The position numbers and the translations under genes were made by a program. Shown here piece after piece: positions 42,485-56,791 of a stretch of 64,000 nt of DNA. Source of the stretch: Variovorax sp. TBS-050B (GTDB lineage: Bacteria; Pseudomonadota; Gammaproteobacteria; Burkholderiales; Burkholderiaceae_C); NCBI RefSeq assembly GCF_029893635.1, contig NZ_JARXYR010000002.1, forward strand, positions 3,757,001-3,821,000, given 5' to 3'. Position 1 is the stretch's first letter. Each line of letters opens with the position of its first letter. The notes under the pieces were generated by a model that was given only the letters and a program-made list of their open reading frames with translations, did not search any database and had not been told where the DNA came from.

Positions 42485-43252
42485 TCATTTGACCAATGAT
42501 TTGATGGAGTCGGCCGGCTGTTTTTCCGGCACCTTCGGCATCTCCTGCAGAACGCCGGAGGCGGCCTCGCCGATCGGGCGCACCGTATCGTCCACCGCCT
42601 TCGGCTCGAGTTCCTTCAGCGATTCATTGGCGTACTGCACCGGTCGATCGCCGGTTTCCAGGTCGGTCATGACGATGGCGTTCTTCTGCAGGTCGATCAT
42701 GAGCTTGGCCTTGTGGGAAGGCATGACCAGGCGGTACCAGCTCTTTTCCGCGGCCGGCTGCATCTTGTGGACCACGCGCCAGGTCGCATTCGGAAGATCG
42801 CGGTAGCCCGCGAAGACGCCGATCGCCGTGGTTTCGGGGTTTGACTTCCTCGTGATCTTGCGCGTTTCGCCGGGCCGGATGATGAACTGGTCGACCGCCA
42901 GCAGGTCGGCCCCGAGCGCCGCCTTGTCTGTTTTTTGCAGGGCAAAGAAGTCGGCTTCCTGGAAGGCGACCTCCGACTTCAGTTCGTAGACCCGCAGCAG
43001 CATCGGGTTGCCGCGCCCCTTGATGTCGACGTTCAGGTCGGCCCCAGCCTTGATCGCGATGTCGAGCTTGGCCGGCTCCTTTTGCGGTGGAGCGTCGCCG
43101 CCCCCGCTCAACACGCTGCATCCGCTCAGTGCCAGCGGAAGCAGCGCGGCCAGCTGCCATGGCTTGGCAGGATGTCTCTCTTTCCGATGCTTCGCGGTCC
43201 GGGCCAACGGCCCCTGGTTTGACCGTGCTGGCACGGCGAATGGCTCTGGCAT
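42485..43252 (-). CDS. tssJ: T6SS outer-membrane lipoprotein TssJ
   Basis: 255 residues. A lipoprotein signal with an unusually long, basic n-region ends in PLALSGC. The mature part has the transthyretin-like fold of TssJ: KLDIAIKAGADLNVDIKGRGNPMLLRVYELK, then FQEADFFAL and QFIIRPGETRKITRK. TssJ anchors TssM to the outer membrane. The C-terminal tail (about 185-255) is longer than usual and Pro/Lys/Glu-rich. ATG 43252 is favoured because GGGAG lies six bases upstream; ATGs at 43264 and 43267 are possible. It is the only T6SS gene on the minus strand here and is divergent from clpV. Confidence 0.88.
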   Translation of the reverse strand: MPEPFAVPARSNQGPLARTAKHRKERHPAKPWQLAALLPLALSGCSVLSGGGDAPPQKEPAKLDIAIKAGADLNVDIKGRGNPMLLRVYELKSEVAFQEADFFALQKTDKAALGADLLAVDQFIIRPGETRKITRKSNPETTAIGVFAGYRDLPNATWRVVHKMQPAAEKSWYRLVMPSHKAKLMIDLQKNAIVMTDLETGDRPVQYANESLKELEPKAVDDTVRPIGEAASGVLQEMPKVPEKQPADSIKSLVK

Positions 43253-43519
43253 GGAACTCCCCATCAATGATTGTGCGTGACCCGGACGAGATTAAGCGTT
43301 TGCGCCACGGGCGCGGGCTTTGGAATTCGCCGAAGCCGGAATCTCGAAAAATTAACGTGCGGTTTGAGAACTAGTTGGCGTGCCATTTATCGCGGCAGTT
43401 CGAGAATACGCGTCGTTCATAAAGCTTCGAGAAGAAGTAAGAAATGAGGGATGCGTGTTGAGCGAACCGACAAAAGGTCTCATCGGGCCAGTGTGCAATG
43501 CAATGCCCCGGTGCGCTCC

Positions 43520-46168
43520 ATGAGCTTTTCGCGCCGCGCCTTGTTCGGCAAGCTCAATCTGACGCTGTTCCGGGCCCTCGAATCCGCCACCGCGTTTGCC
43601 AAGCTGCGTGGCAATTCCTATGTGGAGCTGGTGCACTGGTTGCATCAGCTCTGGCAGCTGAACGACAGCGACCTGCACCGCATCTGCCGCCATGTCGGCA
43701 TCGACCCCGGGAGCCTCGGGCGCGATTTCACCGTTGCCTTGGGCGCCTTGCCGGCCGGCGCGACGTCCATCAATGATTTCTCGCGCCACATCGAACAGGC
43801 GGTGGAGCGCGCATGGGTGCTCGGGACCATCGGATTTGGCGGCAACAGCGTGCGTGGCGCTTGGCTGATGACCGCGGTGGCCGGCGATCCTGAACTGCGC
43901 CGCGTGCTGCTGGGCATCTCCACGCAGTTCCAGAAGCTTCCCGCCGACGGACTCGAGGCCGTGCTGCAGGCCATCGTCGCGGGTTCGGCCGAGGACGGCG
44001 AGGGGGCCCATGACGGCTCCGGTCTCGCCGCCGCGCTGCCCGGCGAGGGCAGTGGTGCCATGGGGGGGCAAACCGAAGACAGGTCCGCCCTGGCGCGGTA
44101 CTGCACCGACCTCACGGCCCTCGCGCGAAGCGGCGGCATCGACCCCGTCATCGGCCGCGCGCACGAGATCCGCACGATGGTCGACATTCTGCTGCGCAGG
44201 CGCCAGAACAACCCGCTGCTCACCGGCGAAGCCGGCGTCGGCAAGACGGCGGTGGTCGAAGGTCTGGCCTGCGCCATTGCGCGGGGCGAAGTTCCGCCGG
44301 CGCTCCGCGAGGTCCGGTTGCTGAGTTTGGACGTCGGCGCGCTGCTGGCCGGCGCCAGCATGCGCGGCGAGTTCGAATCCCGCCTCAAGGCGCTGCTCGA
44401 AGAGGCAGCAAAGTCTCCGCAGCCGGTCATTCTGTTCGTGGACGAGGTCCACACCCTGGTCGGTGCGGGCGGGCAGGCGGGCACCGGCGACGCCGCCAAT
44501 CTGTTGAAGCCGGCGCTGGCACGCGGCACGCTCCGGACCGTGGGGGCCACCACCTGGAGCGAATACAAGAAGCACATCGAAAAGGATCCGGCGCTGACCC
44601 GCCGCTTCCAGGTGCTGCAGGTGCTCGAGCCGCAGGAACTGTCGGCGATCGAGATGGTGCGCGGCCTCGTGGCCACCTTCAAGGCGCACCACGGCGTCAC
44701 GGTGCTCGACGAGGCGGTGCGCGCCGCGGTGGTGCTGTCGCACCGCTACATTCCGGCGCGGCAACTGCCTGACAAGGCCATCAGCCTGCTCGACACCGCA
44801 TGCGCGCGGGTGGCCATGTCGCTGCATGCGCCGCCGTCGCCGGTCGCCCATGCTCGCCAGCGCGTCGCCGGGCTGAACACCGAACTGGCGCTGCTCGGAG
44901 AAGAGGGCGCCGTGACGCAGGGCAGCCACGCGCGCGCTCTGCGTCTGATTGCGGCAAGAGACGCGCTGGTCATCGCGACGCGCGAGCAGGCGGAACAGGA
45001 ACGCCGCTGGGAAGAGGAACTGGCACTGGTCCGGCAGATCCTGACGCTGCGCGAGCAACGGGCTTCTGCTGCCGAGTCCGCTTCGGACCTTGCTGCGCTG
45101 GAGCGGCAGCTGATCGCCCGTCAGCAGGAGGCCCCGCTGGTCTTCCCGCAGGTCGACGAATCGGTGGTGGCGGCGATCGTGGCGGACTGGACCGGCATCC
45201 CGGTGGGCCGGATGGTGCGCGACGAGGTCGCCGCGGTGTTCGAACTCCAGCGCACGCTGGAGCGCCGCGTCATCGGACAACGCGAGGCCCTCGCGGCCAT
45301 CACCGAGCGGGTGCAGACCGCCCGGGCACAGCTCACCGACCCCGGCAAGCCCGTGGGTGTCTTTCTGCTCGTCGGTCCTTCCGGCGTCGGCAAGACCGAG
45401 ACCGCATTGGCACTGGCCGAGGCCATGTACGGCGGCGAGCAGAACCTGATCACCATCAACATGAGCGAGTTCCAGGAGCCGCACACCGTGTCGACCCTCA
45501 AGGGCTCGCCACCGGGTTATGTGGGCTACGGCGAAGGCGGCGTGCTGACCGAGGCCGTGCGCCGCAAACCCTACAGCGTGGTCCTGCTCGATGAGGTCGA
45601 AAAGGCGCACTCCGACGTTCACGAGATCTTCTACCAGGTGTTCGACAAGGGCTGGATGGAAGACGGCGAAGGGCGCCGCATCGACTTCCGCAACACCATC
45701 ATTCTGCTGACCAGCAACACCGGTTCCGAGCTGATCGCTTCGCTTTGCGAAGACCCGGCACTGATTCCCGGCGTCGCGGCGCTGCGCGAAACGCTGCAGC
45801 CCGTGCTGCGCCAGGTGTTCCCGGCCGCCTTCCTCGGGCGCCTGTCGGTGGTGCCGTACCTGCCGCTCGCCGAAGCCTCGCTCGACCGCATCGTCTCCCT
45901 GCACCTCGAGCGCGTGGCCATGCGGATGCGCGAACTGCACGGCATCGGCCTGAGCTACTCGCCCGCCCTCGTGGCACATGTCATTGCAAACGGCGGCACG
46001 CACGAAACGGGGGCTCGGCGCCTGATCGGATTCATCGAGCAGCACCTGCTGCCCGTGTTGTCGCGGCAGTGGCTCGACGCATTGCAGTGCCAACGCACCA
46101 TCGCACGCATCGAAGTCGGCGTCGACCCCGAAAAGAGCGAAATCGCATGCCACACCGAGTACGCGTGA
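43520..46168 (+). CDS. clpV: T6SS sheath-recycling ATPase ClpV (TssH)
   Basis: 882-residue double AAA+ ATPase that disassembles the contracted TssB/TssC sheath. The N domain (about 1-160) has the ClpV-specific FGKLNLTLFRALESATAFAKLRGNSYVELVHWL that binds TssC. Walker A motifs are GEAGVGKT (about 240) and GPSGVGKT (about 621), with Walker B VILFVDEVHTLVG and VLLDEVEKAH. A coiled M-domain lies between. The start ATG 43520 gives MSFSRRALFGKLN; a reading from 43451 adds no conserved sequence. It is first of the plus-strand T6SS genes. Confidence 0.95.
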   Translation: MSFSRRALFGKLNLTLFRALESATAFAKLRGNSYVELVHWLHQLWQLNDSDLHRICRHVGIDPGSLGRDFTVALGALPAGATSINDFSRHIEQAVERAWVLGTIGFGGNSVRGAWLMTAVAGDPELRRVLLGISTQFQKLPADGLEAVLQAIVAGSAEDGEGAHDGSGLAAALPGEGSGAMGGQTEDRSALARYCTDLTALARSGGIDPVIGRAHEIRTMVDILLRRRQNNPLLTGEAGVGKTAVVEGLACAIARGEVPPALREVRLLSLDVGALLAGASMRGEFESRLKALLEEAAKSPQPVILFVDEVHTLVGAGGQAGTGDAANLLKPALARGTLRTVGATTWSEYKKHIEKDPALTRRFQVLQVLEPQELSAIEMVRGLVATFKAHHGVTVLDEAVRAAVVLSHRYIPARQLPDKAISLLDTACARVAMSLHAPPSPVAHARQRVAGLNTELALLGEEGAVTQGSHARALRLIAARDALVIATREQAEQERRWEEELALVRQILTLREQRASAAESASDLAALERQLIARQQEAPLVFPQVDESVVAAIVADWTGIPVGRMVRDEVAAVFELQRTLERRVIGQREALAAITERVQTARAQLTDPGKPVGVFLLVGPSGVGKTETALALAEAMYGGEQNLITINMSEFQEPHTVSTLKGSPPGYVGYGEGGVLTEAVRRKPYSVVLLDEVEKAHSDVHEIFYQVFDKGWMEDGEGRRIDFRNTIILLTSNTGSELIASLCEDPALIPGVAALRETLQPVLRQVFPAAFLGRLSVVPYLPLAEASLDRIVSLHLERVAMRMRELHGIGLSYSPALVAHVIANGGTHETGARRLIGFIEQHLLPVLSRQWLDALQCQRTIARIEVGVDPEKSEIACHTEYA

Positions 46169-46230
46169 CGTTCCCCGTCGAGGCTTGCGCCTCGGCCCTT
46201 TGAGTTCATTTGTTAAGTACGGGAGTTTTC

Positions 46231-46761
46231 ATGGCCATCAACAACAGCAGTCAGAAGTTCATCGCCCGCAATCGGGCACCGCGCGTACAGATCGAGTACG
46301 ACGTCGAAATCTATGGCTCGGAGAAGAAGATCGAGCTGCCCTTCGTGATGGGCGTGCTCGCCGATCTGTCGGGCAAGCCCGTCGAGCCGCTGCCTCCGGT
46401 GGGCGAGCGCAAGTTCCTCGACATCGACATCGATAACTTCGACGAGCGCATGAAGGCCATCCAGCCGCGCGTTGCGTTTTCGGTGCCGAACACGCTGTCG
46501 GGCGAGGGCCAGCTCATGGTCGACATCACTTTCGAGAGCATCGACGACTTCTCGCCCGCCGCGATCGCACGCAAGGTCGAGCCGCTTGCCCGCCTGCTCG
46601 AAGCGCGCACGCAACTGGCGAATCTCCAGACCTACATGGACGGCAAGGCCGGTGCCGAGAGCCTGGTCAACAAGCTTCTGCAGGATCCGGCGCTCATGAA
46701 GTCGTTGGCGGCCAGCCCGAAGCCGCAATCCGCCGCTGCGGACGGCGCCACCGTCGCCTGA
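46231..46761 (+). CDS. tssB: T6SS contractile sheath small subunit TssB
   Basis: 176 residues. Together with TssC it forms the sheath around the Hcp tube. Family wording is QKFIARNRAPRVQIEYDVE, KKIELPFVMGVLADLSG, FLDIDIDNFDERMKAIQPRVAF, LLEARTQLANLQTYMDGK. ATG 46231 follows GGGAG and gives MAINNSSQKF. tssC starts 34 bases after its stop. Confidence 0.97.
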   Translation: MAINNSSQKFIARNRAPRVQIEYDVEIYGSEKKIELPFVMGVLADLSGKPVEPLPPVGERKFLDIDIDNFDERMKAIQPRVAFSVPNTLSGEGQLMVDITFESIDDFSPAAIARKVEPLARLLEARTQLANLQTYMDGKAGAESLVNKLLQDPALMKSLAASPKPQSAAADGATVA

Positions 46762-46795
46762 GGGCGGCACACCCACTCATCTCAAGGACCTGCAC

Positions 46796-48292
46796 ATGAC
46801 ACCCCACAGCACGGAAACCTCGGCAGCCGCCATCCAGTACATCGATGCGGGCGACTTCTCCTCGCTGCTCGACAAGGAGTTCAAGCCCAAGACCGACGAA
46901 GCCCGCGGTGCGGTCGAAGCGGCCGTGCGCACGCTCGCCGAACAGGCGCTCGTGAACGCCGCCACCATGACCGACGACGCCTACAGCAGCATCGAAGCGA
47001 TCATCGCGGAGATCGACCGCAAGCTGTCGGAGCAGATCAACCTCGTGCTCCACAAGGAGGACTTCCAGAAGGTCGAAGCGGCCTGGCGCGGCATGCACCA
47101 CCTCGTCTATAACACGGAGACCGACGAGAAGCTCAAGATCCGCTTCATGGACATCTCCAAGGACGAGATGCGCCGCACCATGCGCCGGCACAAGGGCATT
47201 GCCTGGGACCAGAGCCCGATCTTCAAGCGCGTCTACGAAGAGGAGTACGGCCAGCTGGGAGGTGAGCCCTACGGCTGCCTCGTGGCCGATTATTTCTTCG
47301 ATCACACGCCGGCCGACGTCGAGCTTCTCGGCGCCATCGCGAAGATCGCCGCCGCCTCGCACGCGCCGTTCATCGCGGCCGCGGGACCTTCGCTGATGGG
47401 CATGGAGTCGTGGCAGGAGCTCGCCAATCCGCGCGATCTTGCGAAGATCACGTCGAACCTCGAGCACGCGCCGTGGAACTCGCTGCGCAACACCGAGGAC
47501 TCGCGCTACGTCGGTCTCGCAATGCCGCGCTTTCTGGCGCGCCTTCCCTACGGCGTGAAGACCAACCCCGTGGACGAGTTCGACTTCGAGGAGGAGACCG
47601 ACGGCGCCGATCACAGGAACTATGTCTGGAACAACGCGGCCTATGCCATGGCCGTGAACATCAACCGCAGCTTCAAGCTCCACGGCTGGTGCACCATGAT
47701 CCGCGGGGTCGAATCGGGCGGGACCGTCGAGAACCTGCCATGTCACACCTTCCCGACGGACGATGGCGGCTTCGACATGAAGTGCCCCACTGAGATCGCC
47801 ATCTCCGACCGCCGCGAAGCCGAGCTCGCCAAGGCCGGCCTGATTCCGCTGGTGCATCGCAAGAACACGGACCATGCGGCGTTCATCGGCGCGCAGTCGC
47901 TGCAGAAGCCGCAGGAGTACATGGATCCGGACGCCACGGCCAATGCCAATCTTTCGGCGCGTCTGCCGTATCTCTTCGCCAGCACGCGCTTCGCGCACTA
48001 CCTCAAATGCATCGTGCGCGACAAGATCGGCTCGTTCAAGGAACGTGACGACATGCAGCGCTGGCTCAACGAATGGATCATGCATTACGTCGATGCCGAT
48101 CCGGCCAATTCGTCGCAGGAGACCAAGGCGAAGCGTCCGCTCGCCGCGGCCGAGGTGGTGGTCGAGGACATCGAAGGCAACCCCGGCTTCTACAGCGCCA
48201 AGTTCTTCCTGCGTCCGCACTTCCAGCTCGAAGGACTGACGGTCTCGTTGCGCCTGGTCGCCAAGCTGCCTTCGCTCAAGGAAGCCGCGTAG
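46796..48292 (+). CDS. tssC: T6SS contractile sheath large subunit TssC
   Basis: 498 residues. Recognised by AWRGMHHLVYNTETDEKLKIRFMDISKDEM, SPIFKRVYEEEYGQLGGEPYGCLVADY and the C-terminal NPGFYSAKFFLRPHFQLEGLTVSLRLVAKLP. The N-terminal region (about 1-60) contains the helix expected to be bound by ClpV. Length and order (tssB–tssC–hcp) are standard. A 135-base gap separates it from hcp. Confidence 0.97.
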   Translation: MTPHSTETSAAAIQYIDAGDFSSLLDKEFKPKTDEARGAVEAAVRTLAEQALVNAATMTDDAYSSIEAIIAEIDRKLSEQINLVLHKEDFQKVEAAWRGMHHLVYNTETDEKLKIRFMDISKDEMRRTMRRHKGIAWDQSPIFKRVYEEEYGQLGGEPYGCLVADYFFDHTPADVELLGAIAKIAAASHAPFIAAAGPSLMGMESWQELANPRDLAKITSNLEHAPWNSLRNTEDSRYVGLAMPRFLARLPYGVKTNPVDEFDFEEETDGADHRNYVWNNAAYAMAVNINRSFKLHGWCTMIRGVESGGTVENLPCHTFPTDDGGFDMKCPTEIAISDRREAELAKAGLIPLVHRKNTDHAAFIGAQSLQKPQEYMDPDATANANLSARLPYLFASTRFAHYLKCIVRDKIGSFKERDDMQRWLNEWIMHYVDADPANSSQETKAKRPLAAAEVVVEDIEGNPGFYSAKFFLRPHFQLEGLTVSLRLVAKLPSLKEAA

Positions 48293-48427
48293 CGTTCGGC
48301 GCATCTTCGTTCCCTAGCCACCGAGGAAGCAGCGCGCAGACGCTGCCGATGGGTCTGGCGTGGTCGCCACCGCGCCCGCGCATCCGTTAAATCAGTTCAT
48401 CACATCAAAAGTTTTCAGGGAGTTTTC

Positions 48428-48913
48428 ATGTCTCAAGATATTTTTCTGAAGATCGCCGGGATCGAAGGCGAGTCGCTCGACGCAGCACACAAGAACGAGA
48501 TCGAGGTTCTCTCGTTCCACTGGAAGGCCTTGCAGGAGTCCACCATGCACGCCGGCTCCGGCGGCGGTGCGGGCAAGGCCACGGTCGAAGACCTGGAGTT
48601 CGAGCATTACGTGGACCGCGCAAGCCCGAATCTCATGAAGTACTGCCTGACCGGAAAGCACGTGGCGGAGGCCAAGCTGACGGTGCGCAAGGCGGGTGGC
48701 AACCCGCTCGAGTACCTGAAGTTCACGTTCACCGACGTGATCATCACCTACGTGGAGCCCTTCGGCGCGAACGCCGACGAACTGCGCGTGAAGGAGCGCG
48801 TGCGCCTCTCGTTCTCGAAGATCAAGCAGGAGTACGCGGTCCAGAACGCACAAGGCGGCAGCGGCGGCGCCGTCACCGCGGGCTACGACATCAAGGGCAA
48901 CAAGGAATCCTGA
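48428..48913 (+). CDS. hcp: T6SS tube protein Hcp (TssD)
   Basis: 161 residues. Hexameric rings stack to form the secreted inner tube. Family wording: DIFLKIAGIEGESLDAAHKNEIEVLSFHW, FEHYVDRASPNLMKYCLTGKH, and EYLKFTFTDVIITYVEPFG. CAGGGAG precedes ATG 48428. A 13-bp hairpin follows its stop, which may keep hcp mRNA abundant relative to the genes downstream. No extra C-terminal effector domain is fused. Confidence 0.97.
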   Translation: MSQDIFLKIAGIEGESLDAAHKNEIEVLSFHWKALQESTMHAGSGGGAGKATVEDLEFEHYVDRASPNLMKYCLTGKHVAEAKLTVRKAGGNPLEYLKFTFTDVIITYVEPFGANADELRVKERVRLSFSKIKQEYAVQNAQGGSGGAVTAGYDIKGNKES

Positions 48914-48988: not shown

Positions 48989-49044
48989 GGGGCTGGCGCG
49001 CTTCGGTGCGCAGAGGCCGTTCGTCAGTCCCCGGAAATCTATAC

Positions 49045-50400
49045 ATGAGTTGGTACAACAAGGTTGCATGGAGCGAAGGGCTCTTTCTGCGTCCGCAGCT
49101 GTTCCAGCAGCAGGAACGCTATCTGGAGCACCTCGCGCACAAGCGCGCGGCCGCCCTCGGCCCCTTTTTCTGGGGCTTCAGCCACTACGCCATCGACGCG
49201 GAATCGCTGTCGTTGGGCAAGGTGGTGCTGGCGAGCGCCGCGGGCACCTTTGCCGACGGCACCCCGTTCGAGGTTCCCGGGCAGGCGCCTCCACCCGCGC
49301 CGCTCACGATCCGGCCGGAGCACCTCGAACAGATCATCTATCTCGCCGTGCCCATTCGAACGCCGAACGGCGAGGAAACCACCTTCGACGAATCGGCGGC
49401 AAGCCACGCGTCGCTGGCGCGCTTCGGAGTCTTCGACACCGAGCTGCGTGATGCGAACTCGATCGGCCAGGGCCCCAAGACGGTCCAGTTGTCGCGGCTG
49501 AGGCTTCGGCTGCTGCCGCAGCGTGAACTGACCGATGCCTGGATCGGTCTGCCGTTGACCAAGGTGACGACGCTGCGCTCCGACGGAAGCATTGCGCTCG
49601 ATGCCCGGCTGATCCCGCCAGTGTCCGGCTACGGCGCCAGCAGTCTGCTGTCCGACTGGATCACCAACCTGCACGGCCTGTGCCGCCTGCGTGCGGAGTC
49701 CCTCGCCGGCCGGCTGACCGGCAATGACGGCAAGTCGAGCGAAGCCGCCGAAGTGTCGGACTTCCTGCTGCTTCAGATCCTCAATCGGTATGAGCCCTTG
49801 CTCGAGCACCGGCTGCGTGTTGCGGAAACCGCTCCCGAGGCGCTCTACACGCTGCTGCGAACGCTGAGCGGCGAACTGGCCACCTTCGTGCGCCCGAGCA
49901 TGCGCAGGCCCGGCCAGTACCCCGCGTACCAGCACGTCGATCCCTATCTGTCGTTCAAGGACCTGGTGGCCGACGTCCAGGCCCTGCTGAACGATGTGCT
50001 GGTGCGCAGCGCGCAGAACATTCCACTGGCCAGCCGTGCCAATGGCGTTCGTGTGGCGAGCGTGGACCCGTCGGAACTGCAGGGCTTTGCGAGCCTGGTG
50101 TTCGCCGTGACGGCGCACACGCCGCCCGACCAGCTGGCGACCCAGTTTCCCGCGCGCTGCAAGGTGGGGCCGAGCGATCGGCTGCCCGAACTCATCCGCT
50201 CGCATCTGCCCGGCATTCCACTGCAGAGCCTCCCGGTGCCGCCGCGCCAGATTCCCTTCAACGCCGGATTCGTCTATTTCCAGCTCGACCAGCGCGGTCC
50301 GCTCTGGGAGCACATGGCCAAGCACGGCGGCCTCGCACTGCACGTGGCGAGCGAGTTCCCGGGCCTGCGCATGGAACTGTGGGGCGTCCGCGAAAAATGA
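49045..50400 (+). CDS. tssK: T6SS baseplate protein TssK
   Basis: 451 residues. Connects the baseplate to the membrane complex. Family wording is VAWSEGLFLRPQLFQQQERYLEHL at the start and NAGFVYFQLDQRGPLWEHMAKHGGLALHVASEFPGLRMELWGVRE at the end. ATG 49045 gives MSWYNKVAWSEG; an upstream GTG at 49006 is less likely. Its stop is 34 bases before the beta-helix gene. Confidence 0.96.
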   Translation: MSWYNKVAWSEGLFLRPQLFQQQERYLEHLAHKRAAALGPFFWGFSHYAIDAESLSLGKVVLASAAGTFADGTPFEVPGQAPPPAPLTIRPEHLEQIIYLAVPIRTPNGEETTFDESAASHASLARFGVFDTELRDANSIGQGPKTVQLSRLRLRLLPQRELTDAWIGLPLTKVTTLRSDGSIALDARLIPPVSGYGASSLLSDWITNLHGLCRLRAESLAGRLTGNDGKSSEAAEVSDFLLLQILNRYEPLLEHRLRVAETAPEALYTLLRTLSGELATFVRPSMRRPGQYPAYQHVDPYLSFKDLVADVQALLNDVLVRSAQNIPLASRANGVRVASVDPSELQGFASLVFAVTAHTPPDQLATQFPARCKVGPSDRLPELIRSHLPGIPLQSLPVPPRQIPFNAGFVYFQLDQRGPLWEHMAKHGGLALHVASEFPGLRMELWGVREK

Positions 50401-50434
50401 AGATGCCAATCGGGTCACTGAGGGAGCGCGCAGC

Positions 50435-51115
50435 ATGAGCACCCCCATCACGAGCATGCAGAAGGAACACGCCCGGCTGCTCGACAACAGCGCAGCTTCG
50501 ATGACCATCTCGGGTGCCGACATGACGCCTGGCGAGTTCGCAGGCGTCGCATGGGTCAATCTCACCTTCACCGGGTGCGTCTTTGCCGGCAAGGGGAACA
50601 TCCGGCTCTCGGCGACAAGGGACTGCAAATTCATCGACTGCCGGTTCCTGGCGCCTGAACACGACTTCGGCGTGATGACGCAGGTCACCTTCAGCCACTG
50701 CCAGTCGGTCGGACGCTCCATCGTCAGCGGCGGCGACGGCAGCAAGGGTGTGCTGTTCGAGCGCTGCCGTTTCTCCGGTGGCGGCGCCGCGCCGGAGAGC
50801 CACGAAGGCATCGGGAGCACCGGTGAGACCGTCTTCCGCCAGTGCTCGGGCGCGGGCGAGGTATTGGTGGGCGGCACGAAGCTGGTCATCGATCGATGCA
50901 GCTTCGACAACATGACTTTCGTCGCGGGGCGTCAGGCCCGGCATGGGACGCCGCTCGCGGCCGTGGTGCTGATCGACGACTCCCAAGGAACAGGTCGCTG
51001 GCGGATGGTCGATTGCCGCACGAAGAAGACGCACGTGCAGAACAGCAGCTTCGATGAAATCGTCAGCGACAACTCCGAGAGCGAGTGGGACGAGGCACTG
51101 AGCCTGGCCCCGTGA
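50435..51115 (+). CDS. Cys-ladder beta-helix-like protein of unknown role in the T6SS operon
   Basis: 226 residues, no signal peptide or membrane segment. A hydrophobic-x-x-Cys motif recurs at Cys 48 (FTGC), 69 (FIDC), 89 (FSHC), 111 (FERC), 137 (FRQC), 155 (IDRC) and 194 (MVDC). The steps are 21, 20, 22, 26, 18 and 39 residues, so about one coil of 20 residues each, as in right-handed beta-helices or pentapeptide-like solenoids. Cysteines would stack in a ladder on one face. The C-terminus is acidic. It sits between tssK and tssL with gaps of 34 and 64 bases, so it is very likely co-transcribed. It is not one of the 13 core T6SS proteins; role unknown (structural accessory, adaptor or cargo). 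Confidence 0.75.
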   Translation: MSTPITSMQKEHARLLDNSAASMTISGADMTPGEFAGVAWVNLTFTGCVFAGKGNIRLSATRDCKFIDCRFLAPEHDFGVMTQVTFSHCQSVGRSIVSGGDGSKGVLFERCRFSGGGAAPESHEGIGSTGETVFRQCSGAGEVLVGGTKLVIDRCSFDNMTFVAGRQARHGTPLAAVVLIDDSQGTGRWRMVDCRTKKTHVQNSSFDEIVSDNSESEWDEALSLAP

Positions 51116-51179
51116 GCCGTTCCGACCGCCTTCCGTTCACCACGCACTCCACGATTCTTTTTGAAAACGGCAGATCCGC

Positions 51180-52577
51180 ATGGCGTACCAACATTCAGCC
51201 CCGTTCCACGAAGAGAACGACCCGCCCGTCTCCGCGCCGCCACCCAAGGCCGCGCCGGTGAGCGACGATCTGCCCAAGGGCATGCAGCTGGCAGCCGAGC
51301 CATCGATGCAGGCGCGCCTGGCTGCCGTCAAGGCGGCAGAGAACCCGCTGCTCGAGGCGGCGCAGCCGCTGCTGCGCGCGCTGGCGGACATGCCTGCGGA
51401 CCTCGAGGGCGAGGACTGCATCAAGGTGATGAGCCGCCTGCTGGAGCGGGAGGTCGTGAGTTTTCAGACGCTGTGCAGCGATGCGCAGATCCGGCACGAG
51501 CATGTGGTCGCGGCGAGCTATTCGCTGTGCACAGCGCTGGATGAAGCCGCCAACAGCACGGCATGGGGCGGTGCAAAGGGCGAGGAGGGCGCGGGCGCCT
51601 GGGCAGGCCGGCAGCTGGCTGCGCGTTTCCACGGCGACACCAAGGGCGGCGACAAGTTCTTTCTGCTCGTGGGGCGTCTTGCGGCCACACCGCAGGAGCA
51701 CATCGACCTGCTCGAACTCATGTACATCATCCTCGGACTGGGTTTCGAAGGCCGGTTCAGCCATGGTGGCGGCACCAACGCGCGCCGGCAGCTCGAAACG
51801 ATTCGCCACCGGCTGCTCACGCTGCTGACGCCCGCGCGCGGCGATGTGCCGCACGATCTTTCGCCGCACTGGAAGGGGGTCGGAGCCGGCAAGTTCCGTC
51901 TGCTGCGCAGCATTCCGGTATGGGTGACGGCCTCGCTGGTCGCGCTGGCGCTGGTGGCCCTTTTCTCCTGGTACAAGTACCAGCTGCTCCATCGGAGCCG
52001 GCAGGTGGAGGCGCACATTCGCGCCGTCGGTGCGATGCAGCCTCCGCCGAAGCCGCCGCGCAAGCCGCTGAGGCTCAAGGAACTGCTGAGCGAGGAGATC
52101 GCGCGCGGCACGGTCAGCGTCGACGAGGACGAGAACCGCAGCATCGTGAGCTTCAAGGGCGACGACATGTTCGTGCCCGGTCGTGCGCGTCTCAATCCAA
52201 AGATCCTGCCCGTCATCGCCAAGGCCGCCAGCGAGATCAACGAAGTGTCCGGCACCGTCCAGGTGACGGGGCACTCCGACAACCAGCCGATCAGGACGCG
52301 CGAGTTTCCCGACAACCAGGTCCTGAGCGAAAAGCGTGCGGATGCCGTGGCCGAGGTGCTCAAGGCCAACGGCGTCGCCGTCGCGCGCCTCAAGGTCGAG
52401 GGTCGCGGCGCCACGATGCCGATCGCGGACAACGCCACGGCCGCGGGCCGGTCTCGCAACCGTCGTGTCGAGATCGTCGTGATACAGAACGGCGCCGCCG
52501 CCTATTCCGCCACCGTGAGCGCGCCTGCCGCCGCACCACCTGATGCCAAGTCGCCAGGCCCGGCCGAACGGCGCTGA
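51180..52577 (+). CDS. tssL: T6SS inner-membrane protein TssL with C-terminal OmpA-like domain
   Basis: 465 residues. A Pro-rich N-terminal tail (1-45), a cytoplasmic DotU domain (about 50-225: ENPLLEAAQPLLRALADM, TALDEAANSTAWG, LLELMYIILGLGFEGRF), one transmembrane helix (about 245-264) and a periplasmic OmpA/MotB-like domain (about 315-443: SFKGDDMFVPGRARL, TGHSDNQPIRT, LSEKRADAVAEVL, GRSRNRRVEIVV). The last binds peptidoglycan, making this the 'extended' TssL that anchors itself to the wall without a separate TagL. tssM follows after 17 bases. Confidence 0.95.
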   Translation: MAYQHSAPFHEENDPPVSAPPPKAAPVSDDLPKGMQLAAEPSMQARLAAVKAAENPLLEAAQPLLRALADMPADLEGEDCIKVMSRLLEREVVSFQTLCSDAQIRHEHVVAASYSLCTALDEAANSTAWGGAKGEEGAGAWAGRQLAARFHGDTKGGDKFFLLVGRLAATPQEHIDLLELMYIILGLGFEGRFSHGGGTNARRQLETIRHRLLTLLTPARGDVPHDLSPHWKGVGAGKFRLLRSIPVWVTASLVALALVALFSWYKYQLLHRSRQVEAHIRAVGAMQPPPKPPRKPLRLKELLSEEIARGTVSVDEDENRSIVSFKGDDMFVPGRARLNPKILPVIAKAASEINEVSGTVQVTGHSDNQPIRTREFPDNQVLSEKRADAVAEVLKANGVAVARLKVEGRGATMPIADNATAAGRSRNRRVEIVVIQNGAAAYSATVSAPAAAPPDAKSPGPAERR

Positions 52578-52594: not shown

Positions 52595-55500
52595 ATGCAA
52601 TACCTCAGACAATTCCTGGGCTTCGTCTTCTCTCGCCAGATGCTGGCTTTCACGGCCATGGTGGTGCTGGCGCTGGTGATCTGGTTCCTCGGGCCACTGA
52701 TCGCCTTCGACGGGCTGCGCCCGCTGGCGACCGCGGGGGTGCGCGTCGCGATCATCGTCTTGCTGCTCACCACGGGCATCCTCTGGCTGGTCAATGGTCC
52801 GGTCAGCCTCGTGGGCGTGGTGGCGCTGTGCCTTCTGGTGTGGCATGCGGGTCCGCTGCTGTCGCTGGGCAGTGCCAAACCGCTGGCGTCGGTGGGAACG
52901 CGAACGCTCGTCGTCGGCGTGATTCTGCTGATCTGCGCGGTGTACTGGCTCTTCTGGCTGCGCAAGAAGCTCCAGGACGATGCCTTCCTGCAGAAATTCC
53001 TGAACTTCGGCAAGCCACCCGCGGAGGACAACGCTGCGAAAGAAGAGCTCAAGACGGTCGGCAAGATCGTTCAGAGCGCCGTCACGCAACTCAAGCGCCT
53101 GCGCTCCGGCGGCGGGCTGCGGCGCATCCTCGAAGGCAAGCGCTACCTGTACGAACTGCCGTGGTACGTCATCGTCGGCAGTCCGGGCGCGGGAAAGACC
53201 ACCGCGCTGCTGAATTCGGGCCTGCAGTTTCCGGTGGCGCACCAGATGGGGAAGGCGCCCCGGAGCATGGCGTTGCAGTCGCAGGGCGGAACGATGCACT
53301 GCGACTGGTGGTTCACCAATGAGGCCGTGCTGATCGACACCGCGGGCCGCTACACCACGCATGACAGCAATGTCACTGCCGACACCGCCGAGTGGCGCGG
53401 TTTTCTGGGCTTGCTGCGCAAGCACCGGACCCGTGCGCCGATCAACGGCGCCATCGTCGCGATCAACGCGGCCGAACTGCTGACGCTCGGCGAGGCCGAT
53501 CGCGTCGCCTACGCCGGCCGGGTTCGCGACCGGCTGGCGGAGCTGCGCGAGCAGCTCGGCATCCGCTTTCCCGTGTACGTGATCGTCACCAAGCTCGACC
53601 TGCTGAGCGGCTTCTGCGAATACTTCCAGTCGCTCACCAGCGAAGGCCGTGCGCAGACCTGGGGGTTCACGCTGCCGTACCAGGGCTTGAAGGGGAACAT
53701 GCGCCTCGGCGCCGCCGACATTGCCGGACAGCGCGAAGCCCTGCGCGAGAAGGTAAGCACCGAACTGGCGCTGCTGAAGGACCGCCTCGCCGCAGGCCTG
53801 CGGTCGCGCCTCAACGAGGAGTTCGACGTCGATCGTCGCCGGCGCATGTTCGCGTTGCCGCAGGAAGTGGCCGGTCTGGCGGTGCCGCTGACCCAGATGA
53901 TCGACGAAGTGTTCCTCGACTCGCGTTTCGACGGCACGCAACTCCATCACACACTGCGCGGCGTCTACTTCACGAGCGGGGCGCAGGCTGACGTCGATCT
54001 GCCGGCGGACCCCGGCACGCTGGTGCAGCGCCTCTGGCGCAGCCTCGGCCGCAGCCCGATGGGCACGCCGGCGGCGAAAGAGAGCGACGCGCCTGCGCCG
54101 GCCGAAGGCGCGACGGTCGAGCAGGCGGGGGAGGGCGGGTCGCAGCCAAGCGCAGCGCCCGCCCCCCGCGGCGCCGAAGTGCCGGCGATCGCCACCTCCC
54201 CGACGCGCGGCCAGCAGGGCTTCTTCCTGCAGCACCTGCTGACCAAGGTGATCATTCCCGAAGCGCATCTGGTGCGACCCAACCTGCGGTGGGAGTTTCG
54301 CTTTCGCCTGCTGCGCCTCATGGGCCACACCCTTTCGCTGGTCATCTTCCTATGGCTGGCGAGTGCGCTGGCGCTGAGCTTCGGAAACAACCGCGACTAC
54401 CTCGTCGCAGTGGACAAGCGCGCCGGGGAGCTCGCGGACAAGGTACGCAGCCTGTTCGCCGACTTCAAGCCGGTCGGCGTGCCCGACGTGCTCGACAGCG
54501 CACGCGAGCTGCCGACCTATCCGGGCGTCGACCTCGACGCGCCGCCGGCGAGCTTCCGTTACGGCCTCAACAGCATCCCGCCGGTGCTCGAAGCCTCCGC
54601 GCACACCTATGCGCACTTGCAGGACCGCATGCTGCTGCCGTCGATCCTGCAGCGGATGGAGGCCGTGCTGGCGCAGAGCGTCAAGGACCGGGATGCCAAG
54701 AGCGCCTACGAGACCCTGCGCGTGTACAAGCTGCTGCACGACCGCACGCGCTTCGCGCAGGAAGGCGGCGCGATGGACGTGAAGACGTGGGTGCTCAAGG
54801 ACTGGGAGCTCACGGGCAGCGCCGCCGCTTTCGGCGGACGCGCCTCGATGGTGGGGCATGTCGACGCACTCTTCTCGGGGGCACGCGTGGTGCAGTCGCC
54901 TTCGCTGCCTAACGAGGCACTGGTGCGCGAGGTTCAAGCCTTTCTCGACAGCAACACCTCGACGCAGCGCGTCTACGAGCGCGCCAAGGCGGCCATGCGC
55001 CATCAGGCGCCGCAGGAGTTCACGCTGATCCGCGCGGTCGGCCCGCAGGCCGGCACGGTGTTCTCGCGCGCCGGCGGACTGCCGCTCGAGAAAGGCGTGC
55101 CGGGCCTGTTCACCTACGACGGCTACCACGAGCTGTTCAACAAGCGCCTGCCCGAGTTCGTCGGACGTGCGCTAGAGGACGACGCCTGGGTGATGGGCCG
55201 GGACCTGGGCGGGTCTGCGGCCATGGGGGGGCGCACGCGGAAGGCGCTGGACGAAGCCGCGGCGGGGCTGCGCACCGATCCGCTGCTCGAAGACATCCGG
55301 CGCCAATACCTGAACGAATACGCCAGATACTGGGAGGATTTCCTCGAATCAATCCGCATCGTCAGCAGCGGCAGCGCAGGCCATGAAGCCCGCGCTGCGG
55401 ACATCGAGGCGCCCGGCTCCAACCTGGGTTTCGATCTTGCCGTCTTGCGCCAGTTCGCCGCGCCGGACTCGCCGCTGACCCGGCTGGCACGCGCCGCCGC

Positions 55501-56791
55501 ACACGAGACCACACTGTCCCGTCCGCTCGTCGCGCGGGCGCAGGAGGAGAAGAGCCTGCTGGACAAGGCCTCCGAAGGCCTCGCCAAGCAGACCCGCGAG
55601 ATCGGAAGGAACTTCGGCATCCGGAGCGAGGAGCGGATGGAGAAGCAACTCGTCGACGACCGTTTCGCCGCGCTGCGCGAAGTCGTGACCGGGCAGCCCG
55701 ATGCGGGCCTCGGCACCGCGACGCCGGCCGCGGCGGGTGGTGCGAAGCCCGGCCTGGAGGCGATCTCGGGGCTGATCAACGAGTTCTACACCCTGCTCGT
55801 GGTGGCCGACACGGCGCTCACGGCGAACAGCCTGCCGCCCGGTGGCGGGGAGGTGGGCATGCGCCTGAAGCTGGAGGCCGGCAAGTTGCCGGCGCCCTTT
55901 CGCGAGGTGTTGAGCGCGCTTGCCGCCAGCGGCAGCGACAAGGTGGTGCAGGGCTCGACCGAAATCCTCCGCAAGCAGGCGCGCTTGCAGTTCGATCGCC
56001 TCATGGGACTGATGTCGGCGCAAGTGGCCGAAGGCTGCAAGCGCGGCATCGAAGGCCGCTATCCGTTCGCTGCTGTTGCGCAGGATGTCGCCATCGAAGA
56101 TTTCACCCAGGTCTTCGCCGCGGGCGGAACGATCGACGAGTACTTCACCAAGTACCTGGCGCCCCTGGTCGACACCAGCGCGCGTCCCTGGCGCTACAAG
56201 AATCCGGCGCTGGCCAACGCCATGGTCGGCGCGGAAGGCGTCGGCGCGGGCGTCGCGCCAGCACCGGCCACCACGGGGCCGACATTGCTCGGCGAGCTGC
56301 TCAAGCTGCTCGCGCAAGGCGGCCCGAACCTCGAAGCCTTCTACCGCGCGCAGAAGATCCGCGAGCTGTTCTTTCGGGACGCCGGAAACAAGAAGCCGTC
56401 ATGGACGATGGAAATGAAAGTGCTCGAACTCGATCCGACCATCACCGACTTGGTGATCGACATCGACGGGCAGGGGCAGCGCTACATTCACGGCCCCGTG
56501 CAGAGCTTCACGGTCAACTGGCCGGGCCAGCGCGGCGGCTCCATGACAGAGCTCATCGCGAATCCCAAGGTGTCGGGGGCGACCTCGACGGTGCGGACGA
56601 CCGGGCCCTGGGCACTTTTCCGGCTGCTCGACAAGGGCCGCATCGTGAGCACCGCGACATCGGGCCGCGTGAACGTCGAGTACCTCTTCGACGGCCGCAA
56701 GGCCTTGCTGGACATCAGCGCGGGCAGCCAGCCCAATCCGCTCAACAGCGACGTGCTCAAGGGCTTTCGCTGCCCGAGCGCGGCGATCTGA
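52595..56791 (+). CDS. tssM: T6SS inner-membrane protein TssM (IcmF)
   Basis: 1398 residues, longer than the usual 1100-1300. Helices at about 17-35, 50-67, 72-88 and 105-122, one more than the typical N-terminal pair, then a cytoplasmic NTPase domain with an intact Walker A GSPGAGKT (195-202), a Pro/Ala-rich linker (about 485-530), a further transmembrane helix (about 575-598) and a large periplasmic part that contacts TssJ. The C-terminus has FTVNWPGQRGGSM and TGPWALFRLLDKGRI. TssM bridges TssL and TssJ. Confidence 0.95.
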   Translation: MQYLRQFLGFVFSRQMLAFTAMVVLALVIWFLGPLIAFDGLRPLATAGVRVAIIVLLLTTGILWLVNGPVSLVGVVALCLLVWHAGPLLSLGSAKPLASVGTRTLVVGVILLICAVYWLFWLRKKLQDDAFLQKFLNFGKPPAEDNAAKEELKTVGKIVQSAVTQLKRLRSGGGLRRILEGKRYLYELPWYVIVGSPGAGKTTALLNSGLQFPVAHQMGKAPRSMALQSQGGTMHCDWWFTNEAVLIDTAGRYTTHDSNVTADTAEWRGFLGLLRKHRTRAPINGAIVAINAAELLTLGEADRVAYAGRVRDRLAELREQLGIRFPVYVIVTKLDLLSGFCEYFQSLTSEGRAQTWGFTLPYQGLKGNMRLGAADIAGQREALREKVSTELALLKDRLAAGLRSRLNEEFDVDRRRRMFALPQEVAGLAVPLTQMIDEVFLDSRFDGTQLHHTLRGVYFTSGAQADVDLPADPGTLVQRLWRSLGRSPMGTPAAKESDAPAPAEGATVEQAGEGGSQPSAAPAPRGAEVPAIATSPTRGQQGFFLQHLLTKVIIPEAHLVRPNLRWEFRFRLLRLMGHTLSLVIFLWLASALALSFGNNRDYLVAVDKRAGELADKVRSLFADFKPVGVPDVLDSARELPTYPGVDLDAPPASFRYGLNSIPPVLEASAHTYAHLQDRMLLPSILQRMEAVLAQSVKDRDAKSAYETLRVYKLLHDRTRFAQEGGAMDVKTWVLKDWELTGSAAAFGGRASMVGHVDALFSGARVVQSPSLPNEALVREVQAFLDSNTSTQRVYERAKAAMRHQAPQEFTLIRAVGPQAGTVFSRAGGLPLEKGVPGLFTYDGYHELFNKRLPEFVGRALEDDAWVMGRDLGGSAAMGGRTRKALDEAAAGLRTDPLLEDIRRQYLNEYARYWEDFLESIRIVSSGSAGHEARAADIEAPGSNLGFDLAVLRQFAAPDSPLTRLARAAAHETTLSRPLVARAQEEKSLLDKASEGLAKQTREIGRNFGIRSEERMEKQLVDDRFAALREVVTGQPDAGLGTATPAAAGGAKPGLEAISGLINEFYTLLVVADTALTANSLPPGGGEVGMRLKLEAGKLPAPFREVLSALAASGSDKVVQGSTEILRKQARLQFDRLMGLMSAQVAEGCKRGIEGRYPFAAVAQDVAIEDFTQVFAAGGTIDEYFTKYLAPLVDTSARPWRYKNPALANAMVGAEGVGAGVAPAPATTGPTLLGELLKLLAQGGPNLEAFYRAQKIRELFFRDAGNKKPSWTMEMKVLELDPTITDLVIDIDGQGQRYIHGPVQSFTVNWPGQRGGSMTELIANPKVSGATSTVRTTGPWALFRLLDKGRIVSTATSGRVNVEYLFDGRKALLDISAGSQPNPLNSDVLKGFRCPSAAI

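Follow-up and report, generated by a model that had tools for sequence, protein, structure and literature searches.

The window (the whole 64,000-nucleotide stretch analysed here) contains a T6SS operon in which a gene for a 226-aa protein lies between tssK and tssL, raising the question of whether this protein belongs to the secretion machine or to what the machine carries. The protein does not belong to the invariable parts of the T6SS machine. Its nearest relatives resemble immunity proteins that protect against an injected toxin, so a role as a cargo-linked accessory is likelier than a structural one. The best reading, with a probability of about 0.4, is that it is a cytosolic, immunity-type, cargo-binding accessory kept at a cargo slot, a function that we infer from its relation to immunity-type solenoids and from the use of the same slot by vgrG modules.

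Organization of the T6SS operon

The features discussed below are as follows.

42485..43267, minus strand: tssJ, divergent from the T6SS operon (TIGR03352, E 1e-39)
43451..48913, plus strand: open reading frames tssH, tssB, tssC and hcp (tssB, the one gene of this run that was family-scanned, by PF05591; tssH, tssC and hcp named from the sequence read by eye)
49006..50400, plus strand: tssK (baseplate), the 5' neighbour (TIGR03353, E 6e-134)
50435..51115, plus strand: gene for the 226-aa predicted beta-solenoid protein (open reading frame with an ATG start, no export signal; AlphaFold2 model, homologs, dN/dS)
50459..50482, plus strand: predicted N-terminal helix, residues 9 to 16 (AlphaFold2 model)
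50576..50899, plus strand: conserved cysteine ladder, codons 48 to 155 (Cys 48, 64, 69, 89, 111, 137 and 155; alignment)
51180..52577, plus strand: tssL (long form), the 3' neighbour (TIGR03349, TIGR03350)
52595..56791, plus strand: tssM (TIGR03348, E 1e-303)

As the original prediction stated, the gene lies inside the operon with short gaps, starting 34 nt from the end of tssK (50400) and ending 64 nt before the start of tssL (51180), all on the same strand. No promoter-like or terminator-like site is present in positions 49900 to 51400, a search in which shuffled sequences themselves give only 0.1 and 1.1. Neither a signal nor a membrane segment is seen in the 226-aa protein, in which the 19-residue hydropathy maximum is 1.17, and its description as a cytosolic-type protein holds.

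The position of tssJ upstream of tssH and divergent from it is common to the window and locus L065, and many relatives have tssJ between hcp and tssK. The window genome (G000, contig C2) has three TssB matches.

A predicted beta-solenoid with a ladder of cysteines

In the AlphaFold2 model (pLDDT 82.5, pTM 0.84) the protein has an N-terminal helix and is otherwise an all-beta solenoid, in agreement with the coiled solenoid and cysteine stack proposed from the sequence. By this prediction it is a right-handed beta-solenoid, probably cytosolic and of the pentapeptide-repeat type; members of the pentapeptide-repeat superfamily are defined, in the available part of one source, by at least eight contiguous pentads in a quadrilateral coil of four pentads (PMC8145042). 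Pfam matches of the window protein are all below cut-off and the searches run gave no name for the VgrG-linked solenoid set closest to it, so the statement that no named family is recognizable stands to that extent; it does not extend to the homologs, as 9 of the 29 proteins found in a protein search carry pentapeptide or beta-helix Pfam labels.

The eight cysteines are at positions 48, 64, 69, 89, 111, 137, 155 and 194. Seven of them, exactly those listed originally, follow a hydrophobic-x-x motif, the exception being Cys64, and five of the eight are followed by x-F/L; each of these counts is reached by a fraction of 0.0003 of 20,000 shuffles. Periodicity alone is weaker, with shuffle fractions of 0.03 and 0.05, and the steps from cysteine to cysteine are uneven (16, 5, 20, 22, 26, 18 and 39). 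The choice of cysteines also changes on alignment: Cys64, which had been omitted, is kept in 29/29 proteins together with Cys 48, 69, 89 and 111, Cys 137 and 155 are kept in 28/29, and Cys194, which had been counted, is kept in just 10/29.

Pentad pairs recur around the cysteines and can be written, for example, as LTFTG-CVFAG, CKFID-CRFLA and VLFER-CRFSG, with Cys at position i-2 and Phe at position i. Positions i-2 and i point inward in the pentapeptide-repeat fold, and because the conserved cysteines occupy i-2, the seven most likely form a buried core-packing ladder; the metal binding or disulfides considered originally are disfavoured. Other conserved residues, which on reading the alignment are placed outside the pentad core (H76-D77-F78-G79, G99-x-D101-x-S103, G125-I126-G127, R166 and W189-R190), suggest a binding surface.

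Distribution of the gene and use of the tssK-tssL interval

Homologs number 29 by protein search and 34 by alignment search, and the 28 other proteins in the alignment are 47 to 68% identical to the window protein. The nine loci found by scanning genome contigs are all in Variovorax or Pseudacidovorax. Of 200 genomes drawn from the wider family, three match at E 1e-3.

The interval between tssK and tssL was surveyed in those 25 of 101 genomes of the genus whose TssK match shares 76% identity or more with window TssK, a count that leaves aside G257 (TssK in two pieces, in a broken cluster) and G253 (a TssK fragment at 67%); further TssK fragments may exist beyond the matches listed. An intact solenoid gene occupies the interval in 7 of the 25 clusters (G000, G205, G287, G226, G234, G271 and G289), and in one more the gene is part of a remnant cluster (G277), whereas a core component would be present in every cluster of this type, and the original view that the protein is not a core T6SS component is borne out. 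The interval is empty in 12 clusters (15 to 272 bp between matches), starts with vgrG in four (G279, G200, G263 and G211), and is cut off from view in one (G274). The slot vgrG of G263 was family-scanned and the other three were called by eye, those of G200 and G211 from the start alone, which is visible at a contig end. The order tssK, solenoid gene, tssL is also found in three Pseudacidovorax loci.

Genes for vgrG are inserted in this interval at L065, L066, L061 and L075, and in G279 the vgrG (called by eye) is accompanied by genes for a DUF4123 protein, a Tle1-like lipase and an unknown protein. These arrangements suggest that a T6SS operon can use its tssK-tssL interval as a cargo site. 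An extra gene separates tssK from the solenoid gene in G205 and G226; the scanned copy, that of G205 (L040:9713-11539, minus strand), is a fatty acid hydroxylase by PF04116, and L042 also has a gene in this place. The 10 intact copies in the two genera are flanked by tssK and tssL, except that two of them have a gene of the fatty-acid-hydroxylase family as a neighbour, and no recognised effector gene is directly beside the solenoid gene. Clusters of this T6SS type survive as broken remnants in G277 and G257 (L046 and L077), and G257 has a 27-residue match to the end of the solenoid gene nearby on the opposite strand.

The gene tree and a machinery tree of 27 clusters (G277 was left out, having too little sequence) agree in supported pairs, several nodes being weak (one at 0.07), and this agreement suggests an old presence of the solenoid gene with repeated loss. 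Ten of the 12 empty clusters fall in one clade. Of four pairs tried, three yielded dN/dS values for the solenoid gene, of 0.125, 0.143 and 0.163, compared with 0.05 to 0.14 for tssL, 0.13 to 0.26 for tagF and 0.02 to 0.07 for tssK; values of 0.12 to 0.16 indicate purifying selection and argue against the gene being debris.

Long-form relatives and a metallophosphoesterase effector candidate

The nearest relatives of the window protein are longer, VgrG-linked solenoids, a set of 49 that are mostly about 380 to 450 aa. Aligned by hhalign, the two sets match colinearly over 202 columns (probability 99.9, E 1e-36, 29% identity), and the profile of the window family scores 71 to 148 bits with 48 of the 49, the other being a fragment at 13.0 bits; a third group, of about 165 aa, which in the window genome is encoded between vgrG (by eye) and an Rhs gene, matches the profile more weakly, at 25 to 38 bits. 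The one long-form relative modelled is a clean solenoid (pLDDT 95.1), and the long forms share with the window protein the N-terminal helix and aligned inward cysteines. They differ in having an additional C-terminal half of the solenoid and, often, an export signal, with RR within the first 12 residues in 26/49 and a lipobox, by a simple pattern, in 11/49; others are fragments or have an internal Met as the called start. By these alignments the window protein belongs to a two-branch family with a signal-less short branch and a long branch that often carries export signals. Both branches occur in a draw of 399 genomes (few of the genus), in which four match at E 1e-8: the short form is that of the window genome, and the long form is found in G200, G071 and G353.

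In 10 of 12 fetched loci the long-form gene is directly 3' of a metallophosphoesterase gene on the same strand, the other two being an array with only an effector fragment and a scrambled locus, and a vgrG match is upstream in 8 of the 12 (in L057 it is split in two, in L056 it runs off the contig, and in L052 its identity is about 40%). Solenoid genes may stand in tandem, as two or three copies. The two metallophosphoesterases scanned (1,061 and 1,097 aa) each match PF00149 at E 1.5e-8. Effector candidates of this kind are at L049:4485-8934 and in L048, L050-L053, L055-L057 and L059, most of them with vgrG upstream, and are followed by one to three solenoids. Because they are encoded directly behind a VgrG-linked metallophosphoesterase, the long-form solenoids are probably its immunity proteins, by guilt by association. 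The layout, with a lipoprotein gene accompanying an effector gene, is common to the long-form relatives and to immunity lipoproteins of the Tli3 type, Tli3 being a T6SS immunity lipoprotein in the available text of its report (PMC9860674), from which the window protein differs in having no export signal. A literature search found no paper on a VgrG-linked metallophosphoesterase effector with solenoid partners, and the arrangement indicates a directly testable effector family.

The metallophosphoesterase is found in 8 of the 101 genus genomes, the same eight that carry long-form relatives, and has no match in the window genome. Among the 25 surveyed genomes the window-type gene and the effector go together in 6/8 versus 1/17 (Fisher p 0.001, a statistic that ignores phylogeny and is computed without G257, which has a broken cluster and no effector). 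In G210 neither TssK (at E 1e-20) nor TssB finds a match, yet two close relatives of the solenoid gene are retained near Rhs fragments, as would be possible for an immunity gene. Each of these two relatives (L006 and L047) is preceded by a homologous small protein.

Possible roles of the solenoid protein

Starting from the computed fold, family relation, slot use and purifying selection, we infer a binding partner and a neutralising role. The protein would be made together with the T6SS apparatus and, through the conserved residues outside the core positions, would bind one specific cargo or spike protein, which it may keep harmless or delivery-ready in the cytosol. A place directly beside an effector gene is expected of an immunity gene; the long form has it in 10/12 loci, and none of the 10 intact window-type copies adjoins a recognised effector gene. 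The agreement of the trees and persistence in two genera fit a role tied to the machine at least as well as they fit a labile immunity gene, if not better. The case also suggests that immunity-type solenoid proteins can persist inside a structural operon. An extension of the immunity-type reading is a long shot: exported solenoids would guard the periplasm and the signal-less branch, coexpressed with the baseplate, would keep that same type of effector inactive where cargo is loaded. If so, only neutralised cargo would be mounted on the T6SS.

A less likely alternative is that the protein is not itself an immunity protein and is instead a spike-assembly accessory, a rigid strap that stabilises a VgrG-PAAR/effector complex before loading. 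TvpB of Serratia, which like the window protein is T6SS-linked and of the pentapeptide-repeat type, is described in the accessible portion of its report as a 'seat belt' strap in a predicted VgrG-PAAR pre-complex, and the same text gives DUF2169 TvpA as shared by Tvp systems and DUF3540 TvpC as additional in class III (PMC13373197). The matching gene and machinery trees also accord with such a strap, as does the occurrence in the window genome of another pentapeptide protein between vgrG and an Rhs gene. However, the window-type gene is not encoded with TvpA and TvpC as in class III, since the four DUF2169 and three DUF3540 matches of the window genome are all outside the window, the nearest more than 140 kb from the solenoid gene; an empty slot in 12/25 clusters of the same type also speaks against the strap. 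TvpB is unlikely to be the nearest relative, given the absence of DUF2169 and DUF3540 from the window and the scores of the genome's own TvpB- and TvpAB-like frames against the family profile, 12.9 and 5.4 bits, which repeats alone could give, versus 71 to 148 bits for 48 of the 49 VgrG-linked solenoids. It is more doubtful that the protein is an orphan antidote to the effectors of competitors, with no role for the strain's own cargo. The immunity position of the long-form relatives, the two genes near Rhs fragments in G210, and the 10 intact copies with no recognised effector gene adjoining are consistent with it, and orphan immunity genes are reported for Ralstonia T6SS auxiliary clusters in the available part of one paper (PMC11481896), but neither a place inside a structural operon nor agreement with the machinery tree is expected of a free antidote.

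It is improbable that the protein bridges TssK and TssL in a structural or regulatory way, which corresponds to the baseplate-membrane link proposed originally. Such a bridge would account for the same-strand position between the two genes in the 10 intact clusters, which span two genera, and for the lack of a promoter- or terminator-like site around the gene. The link is unsupported because tssK directly adjoins tssL in 12/25 equivalent clusters and vgrG comes first in four more; moreover, tssK and the solenoid gene are separated by another gene in G205 and G226. Least probable by far is a topoisomerase protector of the DNA-mimic kind, such as Qnr, AlbG or MfpA, which with HetL are the pentapeptide-repeat proteins among the closest known systems. 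AlbG and Qnr lead both the sequence and the Foldseek matches among solved structures, but the scores are weak (phmmer E 0.004; Foldseek E 0.001, TM 0.26) and far under the cut-offs of the NCBIfam Qnr models, and the solenoid gene is linked to a T6SS. The immunity-type, cargo-binding accessory remains the preferred reading, as its relatives and its slot both point to cargo.

Other pentapeptide proteins are described as T6SS accessories in the available parts of two reports, on TagB/TagAB of Pantoea (PMC3942780) and on a pair in Burkholderia glumae (PMC8747328). The window genome has class III Tvp genes, with DUF2169 and DUF3540 a few kilobases apart, at three other places, and at L038:8693-16958 it has vgrG (by eye), a 164-aa pentapeptide protein and an Rhs gene in that order, the pentapeptide protein being in the usual place of an adaptor.
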